Of a DNA stretch of 12,285 bases, positions 4,426 to 12,285 are shown in pieces. Where the stretch lies: contig JAGAHK010000110.1 of the NCBI GenBank assembly GCA_017627115.1, forward strand, positions 1 through 12,285. The letters are read 5' to 3'. The notes beneath the pieces are model-generated. The model was not told the DNA's origin, ran no database searches, and saw nothing but the letters and a program-made list of their open reading frames with translations. Position numbers and translations under genes: made by a program. The stretch comes from Bacillota bacterium (GTDB lineage: Bacteria; Bacillota; Clostridia; Lachnospirales; CAG-274). How positions within the stretch are numbered: position 1 is the first letter of the stretch; every line of letters begins with the position of its first letter.

Positions 4426-4480
4426 AAAAAAAGGGACTGTCGCATTAAGAATATGATAATATTCAATGTTTCAGTCCCTT
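4426..4480 (-). terminator. Hairpin plus T-tract, likely terminator of the parAB-serS operon
   Basis: Read on the minus strand, AAGGGACTG (4480-4472) pairs with CAGTCCCTT (4439-4431). Inside this, AATG/CATT and GAATAT/ATATTC add pairs around a 4-nt loop, about 19 pairs in all with a 3x3 internal loop and an AA bulge. The stem is followed by a T-tract down to 4426, the rho-independent pattern for minus-strand transcription. On the plus strand no T-tract follows, so it would serve the activase gene less well. The stem includes the left terminal repeat of the element. Confidence 0.6.
4433..4449 (+). repeat. Left terminal inverted repeat of the element
   Basis: The sequence GGGACTGTCGCATTAAG matches the complement of 4680-4696 at 15 of 17 positions; the 12-base core TGTCGCATTAAG is identical. 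The same core opens the second element copy at 12151. Confidence 0.65.
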
Positions 4481-4642
4481 ATATTGTCTATTCCCTGTTA
4501 AATGAAATTTTTTATTAATGTAATTTTGGCGCCGCAGGCTTTAATCCGCAGGCGGAAACCGCGTTTTCGCCGAGGAGCAGACGAAGTCTGCATACTCTAC
4601 AGACTTGCAAGTGTATCTTTGATGCACGCAGACAAGTCTGCT

Positions 4643-4696
4643 AATTGGCAAAAAACCTGTTTTTTGCCAGAGGGTGGAGCTTAATGCGACACCCCC
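4643..4696 (-). repeat. Conserved two-hairpin arm, copy 1
   Basis: This 54-bp block matches 12146-12199 at 51 of 54 positions. On the minus strand, stem I pairs GGGGGTG (4696-4690) with CACCCTC (4676-4670), including one G-U pair, and the terminal-repeat core forms most of the loop. Stem II pairs TGGCAAAAAAC (4669-4659) with GTTTTTTGCCA (4656-4646), 11 perfect pairs. It begins 9 nt after the serS stop codon and would be transcribed with serS. Confidence 0.7.
4680..4696 (-). repeat. Right terminal inverted repeat of the element
   Basis: On the minus strand this reads GGGGGTGTCGCATTAAG. It is the serS-proximal end and corresponds to the start of the second copy (GAGGGTGTCGCATTAAG, 12146-12162), with one difference. 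Confidence 0.65.
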
Positions 4697-7417: not shown

Positions 7418-7439
7418 AAATGTTTCACGTGAAACATTT
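7418..7439. promoter_or_regulatory. parS centromere site, parB-DUF4446 gap
   Basis: A perfect 22-bp palindrome contains TGTTTCACGTGAAACA (7421-7436), the standard parS consensus bound by the ParB/Spo0J helix-turn-helix. It sits 37 bp past the parB stop in the 108-bp gap before the DUF4446 gene. I see no convincing promoter in that gap. Confidence 0.93.
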
Positions 7440-9208: not shown

Positions 9209-9237
9209 ATTATACCATAAAAATGTTTCACGTGAAA
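9209..9237 (-). promoter_or_regulatory. Promoter of the parA-parB operon
   Basis: On the minus strand a perfect TATAAT (9214-9209) is preceded by TGG, an extended -10. The -35 region (TTTCAC, 9237-9232, 17-bp spacer) is weak and lies inside parS. The extended -10 may make up for the poor -35. ParB bound at parS would cover this promoter, suggesting autoregulation. Confidence 0.6.
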
Positions 9238-9239
9238 CA
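9224..9239. promoter_or_regulatory. parS centromere site upstream of parA
   Basis: A second perfect TGTTTCACGTGAAACA palindrome lies about 1.8 kb from the first, so consensus parS sites bracket the parA-parB pair. This one overlaps the -35 and spacer of the parAB promoter. Confidence 0.93.
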
Positions 9240-9463: not shown

Positions 9464-10147
9464 ATGCTACGGCTTGAAAACATACATAAAAGCTACGGCA
9501 AGGCTAAAATACTTGACGGTGTGGGCTTTGAGATATACAAAGGCGACTGTATCGGGCTTATCGGCGGCAACGGCTGCGGCAAAACCACATTGATACAGAT
9601 ACTTTGCGGCACTTTAAAACCAAATAAAGGCAGCATACTTAACGGCGGTGAGCCTGTTGAGAGGGCAGACTACAAGCATCTTTTCGGCTATCTTCCGCAG
9701 AACGATCCTCTTATTGACGAGCTGACGGTCAAGGATAATCTGAAACTGTGGTTTTCGGCAATGGATATAAAGTTCAAGGGCAGCGATATTGTTGATAAAC
9801 TCGGCATTTCGGGCTATCTTAATAAGCCTGTGAATAAGCTTTCGGGCGGTATGAAACGCCGTGTGAGTCTGTGCATTGCAATGGCGAATAAGGCGCCGAT
9901 ACTTGTTATGGATGAGCCGACGACCGCACTTGACCTTGCGGCAAAAGGCGAAATATGGCAGCTTTTGAAGGATTTTATCACAAACGGCGGCACAATAGTT
10001 CTGAGTACGCACGATTATGATGAAATAAAGCGGTGCAGCCGTCTTATGCTGATGAAAAACGGCAAGCTGAAAGAAATAGATAAAAATACATCATATAATG
10101 AGATAATCGAGAGTATTATTGGAGGAGTAAATGAAGGACAACGATAA
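9464..10147 (+). CDS. ABC transporter ATP-binding protein
   Basis: This 227-residue nucleotide-binding domain binds and hydrolyses ATP for a membrane transporter. It shows Walker A GGNGCGKTT (34-42), Q-loop Q79, signature LSGGM (126-130), Walker B ILVMDEP (146-152) and H-loop H183. The profile (MLRLENIHKSYG start, YLPQNDPLIDELTVKDNL) resembles ATPases of CcmA/multidrug or exporter type. I chose the ATG at 9464: it has GGAAG about 5 nt upstream, and family members start here. An in-frame ATG at 9404 would add 20 residues, but its AGAGG is only 3 nt away. The end overlaps the next gene by 17 bp, so the two are coupled. No permease is recognisable nearby; its partner may be that membrane protein or may be encoded past the window. 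Confidence 0.88.
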   Translation: MLRLENIHKSYGKAKILDGVGFEIYKGDCIGLIGGNGCGKTTLIQILCGTLKPNKGSILNGGEPVERADYKHLFGYLPQNDPLIDELTVKDNLKLWFSAMDIKFKGSDIVDKLGISGYLNKPVNKLSGGMKRRVSLCIAMANKAPILVMDEPTTALDLAAKGEIWQLLKDFITNGGTIVLSTHDYDEIKRCSRLMLMKNGKLKEIDKNTSYNEIIESIIGGVNEGQR

Positions 10148-12137
10148 GCAAAGGCGGGGCAGAGTTGCTTCAAGGGAAGAATTGCTGAAAAAAAGTTCGC
10201 GCCGTGACCCGTCAAGGCGTGAGAGTACACGCAGGCAGACTTCCGAGGAAGAACCCGTAAAGAAAAAAACGGCATCGCAGGAGGCAAGGCAGAGGGCTGC
10301 GGAAAGACCGCACCATACAAGCGATGAACGCAGGCGGTCGGACGAACGCACTCCGCAGCAGACAACACAGCGTGTGACCTCACAGAAACAGGGCACAAAA
10401 AAGCGCAGAAAGAAAAAAAACAAGCTTAAAAGATATTACAGGCTGATAATTGTGATGATAATTTTCGTGCTTATTCTTGCAATACCTATAAGCGGAATAA
10501 TAAGGCTGTTTTCGGGCAGCAAGGGCAGTGTGCGCAGGGCATATGCAAAGACTGTGAGTATGTACGAGAAAAAGCCTTCGGTGACGGAAAAAATACTTGG
10601 CAAGGATGTCACAAAGCTGATGAAAACAGGCAATTACAGTCAGAATTTCAGACTTGGCGTTACCGATAACACGGCAGGCATACAGGGGCTTGGCATATCG
10701 GGCAGCATGAACAAAAATACCTCGGGCAAAACGGCTGATATTCAGCTTTCCGCAGGTTATTCCGATGCGGATGTCATAGGGCTTAAAATGTTTACGGACA
10801 ATAAGCAGATTCTTCTTTCGGCACCCGGTATCTACGATTCATGGCTCTCGATAGACTGTGATAAAAATGTTTCGCAGCTTTCGCAGTCGGCTCTCGGCAA
10901 AAAGATAGAGTTCTCCGATGAGCGTGATTTTCCGCTTAAACTTTTTGACGAACAGGATGACCAGGGCGAGATAATAGTCGGTCTCGGCGAGCAGTTTAAA
11001 ACCATTTTCACAAAGCAGGCCGACAGCCTTTCCAAAAAGGCAGCATATAAGAGAATAAAGGAAAAGAAGGTCGTACTTATCGACGGTGCGGAAAAACGTC
11101 TGCGCGGCTACGAGCTGACGATAAAGGGCGATGATTTCAAAAACTTCCTTGTAAATATCATCAGCGATGTGAGGAAAAACAAGAAGATAAAAGCCTATCT
11201 TACCAATTATGCAAAGATACAGTTTAAGGAATGGGGCTTTTTGAGCAAGCTTTACGACAGCCCCGATTATCTTGTGGATACCTATTACAAGCAGATAGAT
11301 GATACGATGGAGAAGATAAGAAACTCCGAATTCGTTGATACAAAGGCGGAAATTTATATCTATAAAGGCGTTATTGCCGATATACATTTCAGTACGGTCT
11401 ACACTATCGACCAGGATCAGATGAAGATTGACCTTACGGGCGGTATGTACGGCGGCAAAAAGCCTTATGAGGACCTTTCGCTCAATCTTTCGTTAAGTGA
11501 CGACAAGCGTGCTCTCAATATAGGCTACGCCGAGGAGACCGACAATATAGATTCCGCTTATACGCATAAGAGGTCTTTTGTGCTGGGTGACGGCAATGAA
11601 GATCTGACTGTTGATACAAAGGTGACTTACGATAAGTCAACGGGCGTGCTGAACGGTTCGGCAAACCTGAAAACACCGAGCGGCGGTTATATCGACCTGA
11701 ACGGTTCGGGCAGTCTTAACAAGGCAAACGGCATTACGCAGATAAATGCGCAGGAGATAAAGCTTGACTATAACAGCCTGTTTACGCTTATTATGGACGG
11801 CAGTTACGATATAGGCGCGCTTTCGGCAAAACCGCAGAAACCCGACGGCGAGGTGACAGACCTGTTTACTGCCGACGAAGCGCAGCTTAATGCCATACAG
11901 ACAACAGTAACGCAGAATATAGATGCGGTGTTCGGCAAAATAGATGAAGTACTGACAAAACTTATCGTTAAACCCGAGACACAGCCTGCGGACGGTCAGA
12001 CGACCGAAAACGGCGAGAATACCGAGGCTTCTTCCGAAAGTACGGAGGGTGCAGCCGAAGAGACCACCGAACAGGCGGAGACCACAGAACAGACGGAAAA
12101 CGCCGAAAACGCTGAAAATACGGACGAAGCGGCATAA
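10131..12137 (+). CDS. Unknown single-pass membrane protein with a large extracytoplasmic domain
   Basis: I do not recognise this 668-residue protein. Residues 1-103 are highly charged and probably disordered (many R/K with S, T and E, ending in KKRRKKKNKLKRYYR). One hydrophobic segment follows (about 104-127). The basic side before it predicts N-in topology with residues 128-668 outside. The outside part is rich in alternating strand-like segments and GG/GSG turns (about 165-245 and 405-560), so a beta-rich fold is likely, with a charged helical portion (about 295-400). There is one cysteine (C243), no sortase motif and no lipobox. The tail (about 614-668) is acidic low complexity built from TEQ and ENAEN units. 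GGAGGAG lies just before the ATG, and the start lies inside the ABC gene, so the pair is translationally coupled. It may be an accessory subunit of the ABC system, but it lacks the multiple membrane spans of a permease. Confidence 0.8.
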   Translation: MKDNDKQRRGRVASREELLKKSSRRDPSRRESTRRQTSEEEPVKKKTASQEARQRAAERPHHTSDERRRSDERTPQQTTQRVTSQKQGTKKRRKKKNKLKRYYRLIIVMIIFVLILAIPISGIIRLFSGSKGSVRRAYAKTVSMYEKKPSVTEKILGKDVTKLMKTGNYSQNFRLGVTDNTAGIQGLGISGSMNKNTSGKTADIQLSAGYSDADVIGLKMFTDNKQILLSAPGIYDSWLSIDCDKNVSQLSQSALGKKIEFSDERDFPLKLFDEQDDQGEIIVGLGEQFKTIFTKQADSLSKKAAYKRIKEKKVVLIDGAEKRLRGYELTIKGDDFKNFLVNIISDVRKNKKIKAYLTNYAKIQFKEWGFLSKLYDSPDYLVDTYYKQIDDTMEKIRNSEFVDTKAEIYIYKGVIADIHFSTVYTIDQDQMKIDLTGGMYGGKKPYEDLSLNLSLSDDKRALNIGYAEETDNIDSAYTHKRSFVLGDGNEDLTVDTKVTYDKSTGVLNGSANLKTPSGGYIDLNGSGSLNKANGITQINAQEIKLDYNSLFTLIMDGSYDIGALSAKPQKPDGEVTDLFTADEAQLNAIQTTVTQNIDAVFGKIDEVLTKLIVKPETQPADGQTTENGENTEASSESTEGAAEETTEQAETTEQTENAENAENTDEAA

Positions 12138-12145
12138 AAACAAAT

Positions 12146-12199
12146 GAGGGTGTCGCATTAAGCTCCACCCTCTGGCGAAAAACAGGTTTTTCGCCAATT
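12146..12199 (+). repeat. Conserved two-hairpin arm, copy 2
   Basis: Stem I pairs GAGGGTG (12146-12152) with CACCCTC (12166-12172), 7 perfect pairs around a 13-nt loop. Stem II pairs TGGCGAAAAAC (12173-12183) with GTTTTTCGCCA (12186-12196), 11 perfect pairs. There is no T-tract after either stem, so it is not a standard rho-independent terminator, although it is the first structure after the stop codon. Confidence 0.7.
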
Positions 12200-12285
12200 T
12201 TGCAGTCATACTGCGCGCCAGCAAGCTGTCACTTGATGCCTGTAAGGTTTGAAAAATCAAGTTTTTCTCCTCGGCGAAAACGCGG
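12146..12285 (+). mobile_element. Second copy of the repeat element, cut by the window end
   Basis: It begins 8 nt after the stop of the membrane protein gene with GAGGGTGTCGCATTAAG. The first 54 bp match copy 1 (4696-4643, minus strand) at 51 of 54 positions. Then 67 bp do not align by eye (12200-12266), and 19 bp (12267-12285) match 4577-4559 perfectly. The far end is outside the window. The variable middle carries GCAGT/ACTGC (12202-12214) and ACTTGAT/ATCAAGT (12231-12262) hairpins. It is in the same sense as the preceding gene, as copy 1 is with serS. Confidence 0.7.

Follow-up and report, generated by a model that had tools for sequence, protein, structure and literature searches.

The 54-bp repeat arm at positions 12146-12199 of the analysed window, a stretch of 12,285 nt that forms contig C63 of a draft genome (457 contigs, 86% complete), belongs to a dispersed, ~264-bp element with inverted ends, of which it is the right end, and is not a stand-alone 3' UTR RNA. 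Comparing copies, insertion sites and related families, we infer both transposition and termination: it is likely that these elements are IS1272-like, hairpin-targeting MITEs mobilised by an IS1182-type transposase, with end hairpins that would serve as replacement terminators. The first-pass annotation, made from the letters of the window and a list of its open reading frames, could not reveal that the arm belongs to a dispersed element.

The arm pair and its element

Direct comparison of 12146-12199 (+) with 4696-4643 (-) confirmed the agreement of 51 of 54 bases given in the first-pass annotation, as well as the three differences that it named. Going from copy 2 to copy 1, the arms differ at position 2, in stem I (A/G), and jointly at the two partners of a single stem II pair (G/A and C/T). 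Both arms are covered by an inverted repeat, I1 (55 nt, 95%), and their similarity extends past 12199: the final ~140 nt of the window are 77% identical to copy 1. The predicted fold of either arm is a pair of neighbouring hairpins (-26.8 kcal/mol, z -5.90, and -24.1 kcal/mol, z -4.16), and none of 200 shuffles is as stable. The opposite strands of the arms fold comparably (-30.6 and -24.0). The features of the two copies are as follows.

4433..4696, + strand: copy 1, a complete element of 264 bp (motif sites, two ends)
4431..4480, + strand: left-end hairpin AAGGGACTG ... CAGTCCCTT, with the left terminal inverted repeat inside it (fold)
4528..4576, + strand: core common to the sister family, GGCGCCGCAGGCTTTAATCCGCAGGCGGAAACCGCGTTTTCGCCGAGGAG (sequence searches)
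4643..4696, - strand: arm at the right end of copy 1, the counterpart of 12146-12199 (inverted repeat and fold)
12146..12285, - strand: copy 2, right part only, the contig ending inside the element, which reads left to right on the minus strand (146 nt matched elsewhere in the genome)
12146..12172, + strand: right-end stem I, GAGGGTG / CACCCTC, 12146-12152 pairing with 12166-12172; the right terminal inverted repeat forms the outer half of this stem (fold and alignment)
12173..12196, + strand: right-end stem II, TGGCGAAAAA / TTTTTCGCCA, loop CAGG, with the compensatory pair (fold and alignment)

The left-end hairpin of copy 1 has a predicted folding energy of -23.8 kcal/mol (z -8.17) on the + strand and -18.5 (z -4.72) on the - strand. 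The motif TGTCGCATTAAG occurs at 55 exact sites of the draft genome (24 forward, 31 reverse), and the reversed control gave 0. Five complete two-ended copies were identified in this genome (L013, L017, L022, L025 and L030, the last being window 4433-4696). Complete copies carry a left end of the type GGG[G/A]CTGTCGCATTA and, at the right, its inverse, and the inverted ends of the window-type element, GRGGSTGTCGCATTAAG, are ~17 bp long. Most two-ended copies measure 237-412 bp, and one is 88 bp. The elements are thus short, devoid of a transposase gene, bounded by terminal inverted repeats and present in many copies, as MITEs are. For copy 2, 146 nt are found at six further places in the genome with 94-99% identity.

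Beyond this genome, the pattern GGSTGTCGCATTAA was present in five of the eight related genomes searched, including four of the five other members of the genus. A blastn search with copy 1 matched 25 of 61 genomes, own genome counted, many of the matches being limited to the core. A wider pattern scan of contigs yielded six stretches in two assemblies of uncultured Eubacteriaceae bacterium, the own and near records perhaps being outside that scan. Rfam gave three matches to the window at E values up to 5, each far under its gathering score; a stand-alone regulatory RNA was therefore rejected. A tRNA-related repeat was also rejected, since the window contains no tRNA.

Several variants of the element were observed. 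In the core hairpin GGCGGAAAC CGC GTTTTCGCC (window 4551-4571), several of 38 pattern-matched copies vary in ways that preserve pairing, e.g. AAAT/ATTT and GCTG/TAGC. In the mosaic copies L011, L026, L063 and L067, the core is joined to a different left module with a CTCCCCT..AGGGGAG hairpin. Single-hairpin, terminator-like copies with TGTCGCATTAAG and matched stems (L043, L148, L161, L168 and L172) may be minimal elements or targets.

Pairing across copies and genomic setting

We counted base pairs in 40 copies with distinct flanks, representing 15 distinct arm sequences; the pattern used does not capture arms that a contig end truncates or that are too degenerate, such as L034, L056, L064, L072, L152, L154, L155 and L164. 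The two-hairpin fold is maintained, the stem II pair being A-T in 26 copies, G-C in 14 and mixed in none. In stem I, position 2 faces T and is A in 19 copies and G in 21, and at position 1, the outermost pair, A is opposite C in five of the 40. Position 5 is mismatched in one copy, where C faces C, and swapped from G-C to C-G in two same-genus copies. The earlier statement that no change breaks a pair thus holds for the two window copies, but not across the 40, six of which are mismatched in stem I.

An alignment of 19 rows (the 15 distinct arm sequences plus L056, L064, L154 and L164, with variant or degenerate arms) has 94.1% of its cells paired, compared with 47.2-62.3% when the structure is slid along the sequences. 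Two-sided changes affect eight cells (shuffled mean 2.3), a value reached in none of 500 shuffles; they fall in two of the 17 pairs, a number that 170 of the 500 shuffles reach. The end hairpins are conserved across copies.

The first-pass annotation had gone further and proposed selection on an RNA read in one sense. Over the five outer pairs of stem I (200 cells in the 40 copies), the strand it had chosen gives 21 G.U pairs and six mismatches, and the other strand five G.U pairs and 22 mismatches. This asymmetry comes from one base of the terminal repeat, and its outermost neighbour shows the reverse. As the two outermost pairs favour opposite strands and stem I is mismatched in six copies, strand-specific RNA selection is not supported: the alignment and counts indicate conserved hairpins, while the strand claim hangs on that one base. 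The compensatory changes would be due to the end hairpins being conserved for termination, as recognition sites of the transposase or for both reasons, and the data fit a constraint on RNA as well as on DNA. Changes in a repeat that preserve pairing thus do not necessarily imply a functional RNA.

The surroundings of the ends were determined next to open reading frames with a simple rule that counts ends rather than elements, tolerates one motif mismatch and requires enough flank. The nearby frame points toward the element at 79 of 105 ends and away from it at 19; seven ends have none. The tally also counts copies with a single hairpin, as well as L179 and L180, which are probably chance hits and both belong to the seven. 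At 96 ends, the 8 nt outside contain a mean of 4.9 A versus 2.6 further out, and 54 of the ends have AAAA within their outer 10 nt, versus 15 for the control stretch. These A-rich flanks behind genes match the surroundings typical of intrinsic terminators. A GC-rich hairpin followed by a T tract behind a gene is present, though not at every copy, and the end hairpins probably act as terminators. Copy 1 lies between convergent genes, 36 nt past the stop of the left gene and 9 nt past that of serS. It has an A tract on both flanks, the right one being A rather than T, which leaves one direction without a U tract.

Insertion sites, sister family and candidate transposase

Joined flanks of six sites (L017, L025, L151, L047, L140 and L111) and one flank of L014 were used as queries in relatives. 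Both flanks were found together for two of the six, L151 and L140; the four others and L014 gave one-sided matches only. The filled site G003 L151 and the empty site G005 L278 lie between orthologous convergent genes. The empty site carries a stem-loop, TGCCGATGT..ACATCGGCA, with an A tract on one side and a T tract on the other; at the filled site, A and T tracts enclose a 412-bp element. Likewise, the empty site G002 L308 has the hairpin AAAGATGTCTCGTTTTAAGGGGCATCTTTTTT, which is absent from G001 L140, filled by a 302-bp element. A terminator-like hairpin is thus present in the element-free allele and missing from the filled one at both two-sided sites, which are few and both between-species comparisons. 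These pairs resemble the hairpin replacement described for IS1272 (PMC5678879) and TnSha1 (PMC4923244).

In G001, G003 and G005, an ordinary hairpin with a T tract directly follows serS, but gene order differs among the relatives, so that these 3' ends give a one-sided comparison and were rejected as two-sided empty sites. In G001, G005, G003 and G002, no more than about 50 nt separate the gene before copy 2 (window 10131-12137) from a membrane-protein-like gene downstream. No strong hairpin is visible at that place in these four relatives, and copy 2 itself therefore does not support hairpin replacement. A search of the own draft genome (86% complete) for the membrane-protein-like gene gave no match; it may be lost, moved or in an assembly gap.

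For the window type, a direct flanking repeat was found only at L013 (13 bp). Flank-to-flank complementarity in 14 window-type elements (5.29 of 10 positions vs 5.14 after shuffling) does not exceed what A/T richness gives. A palindromic target duplication was also looked for in this type and not found.

The core is also part of sister elements ended by CAGACTGTCRA-like and TCGACAGCC-like sequences. Used as a query, one of these elements had matches in 27 of 48 genomes from the bacterial family, spread over seven of 11 genera. Among the matches listed, we sampled 37 copies from ten genomes with nearly full query coverage, chosen before their flanks were seen. In 35 of the 37, the flanking direct repeat scores at least at the 99th percentile of shuffled pairings. 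These duplications have a median length of 25 nt (16-35) and are exact in 21 of the 35; stems of at least six pairs are present in 33, and all 35 fold better than base shuffles, with z below -2. T is enriched after them (4.2 of 8 vs 2.7) and A before them (4.6 vs 3.1). Hairpin duplication was also seen in six sister copies known before the sampling. The folding of the duplications and their A and T tracts indicate that sister elements insert at terminator-like hairpins and duplicate them. At the sister element L269 (G010:C2), the flanking hairpins look mutually inverted, with loops TTATT and AATAA on the same stem, which may be informative about the mechanism.

PF13751 matches were found in 16 of the 48 family genomes and exceed the cut-off in 15. 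L186 is a complete IS of 1511 bp with a 475-residue frame containing PF13751. Its ends, CAGTCTGTCAATAAA and the inverse of CAGTCTGTCAAAAAA, are near-identical to those of the sister family; it is flanked by an exact 25-bp hairpin duplication, and a sister-type end is directly adjacent. L188 and L189 are IS with both ends and a hairpin at one side only. The ends of L185, L201 and L205 (GGGGCTGTTGCAAATTA and the like) resemble those of the window type, whose link to the transposase is thus a putative one, by similarity. No intact transposon with exactly window-type ends was found. The two PF13751 loci found in the own genome, L181 and L183, were rejected as the source since their ends are different, and by eye no transposase was recognised near L075 and L078, two fragments with the same left end. 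In L188 (G022:C52), the transposase frame extends past the right IS end and into flanking DNA, a feature also reported for IS1272 (PMC4923244).

Alternative explanations and known systems

In the mechanism that we favour, an IS1182-type (PF13751) transposase would recognise the ends of the element, themselves hairpins, and the same enzyme would recognise a target hairpin, usually a terminator. The element would then substitute for the target stem-loop, the A and T tracts of the target staying in place. The end hairpins and the leftover T tract would form a substitute terminator, so that insertions would do little harm and copies would accumulate.

A structured 3' UTR RNA selected in the sense of the upstream gene and spread by duplication, without transposition, as the first-pass annotation proposed, would account for the compensatory stem II pair, for two-sided cells in excess of all shuffles, for the majority of ends facing the 3' end of a gene and for the G.U at arm position 2 on the strand it had chosen. 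We consider it unlikely: the strand asymmetry stems from one base and is opposite at the next, the other strand folds equally, there is no Rfam family, and inverted ends with filled and empty sites suit a transposon. The existence of single hairpins with the motif and a T tract (e.g. L043, L168 and L172) would also agree with non-transpositional copying of an ordinary intrinsic terminator of stereotyped form, in which case the long elements would be terminators that acquired other repeats. The common core and two inverted ends of the long copies, the replacement seen at orthologous sites and the target duplications at sister copies make this account improbable. Finally, the pairing pattern might be a matter of chance between two related copies with neutral hairpins. 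The copies do share ancestry, and two-sided change affects only two of 17 pairs, as in many shuffles (170 of 500). However, such a coincidence is highly improbable given the proportion of paired cells (94.1%, the best slid structure reaching 62.3%), the eight two-sided cells against a mean of 2.3, never reached in 500 shuffles, and arm folds well below those of shuffled sequences.

Hairpin-directed insertion, the process that our favoured mechanism assumes, has already been described for IS1182-type elements, IS1272 above all. According to PMC5678879 and PMC4923244, IS1272 and TnSha1, IS1182-family elements of staphylococci, target hairpins of any sequence, often terminators; the target stem-loop is lost and no target duplication is left. 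The window type is similar in that a terminator-like hairpin is missing from both filled sites with an empty counterpart and a flanking duplication is rare. In contrast with these gene-bearing elements of staphylococci, those described here are gene-free, ~264 bp long and found in another bacterial group. The hairpin duplication of the sister family also differs from IS1272 and TnSha1, and corresponds to pathway b of the model presented in PMC5678879.

Compared by description with the account in PMC3049150, the elements are like SPRITE, BOX and RUP of pneumococcus in being small, many-copy, intergenic and folded, and like SPRITE in being terminator-like and near gene 3' ends. SPRITE is presented there as a single long duplex with AAAA/TTTT ends, for which target duplication could not be established; unlike it, our elements have ~17-bp inverted ends, a core, and filled and empty sites. 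They share with ordinary intrinsic terminators the A tract, the GC-rich stem, the T tract and the position behind genes, and differ from them in forming a sequence family that is dispersed, has inverted ends and shares a core. No account of these elements turned up in an open-licence library, though one may be in print elsewhere.

Dozens of natural insertions of gene-free relatives with many copies per genome follow the hairpin target rule here, and they illustrate how supplying the very signal that its insertion destroys may make a mobile element safe. The outcome, duplication or replacement, differs between families that share a core, which makes the published strand-transfer model testable. 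We give even chances to a broader reading, a guild of terminator-hunting MITEs across the bacterial family, with core-sharing lineages of which one duplicates the target terminator and the other replaces it with its own end hairpins. The duplicating lineage would then leave both neighbouring genes one terminator each, two of the pathways proposed for IS1182-type transposases would be realised side by side, and many host terminators would have been rewritten without loss of function.

Elsewhere in the window, two exact copies of TGTTTCACGTGAAACA (7421-7436 and 9224-9239) lie beside ParA- and ParB-type genes and are candidate parS sites.
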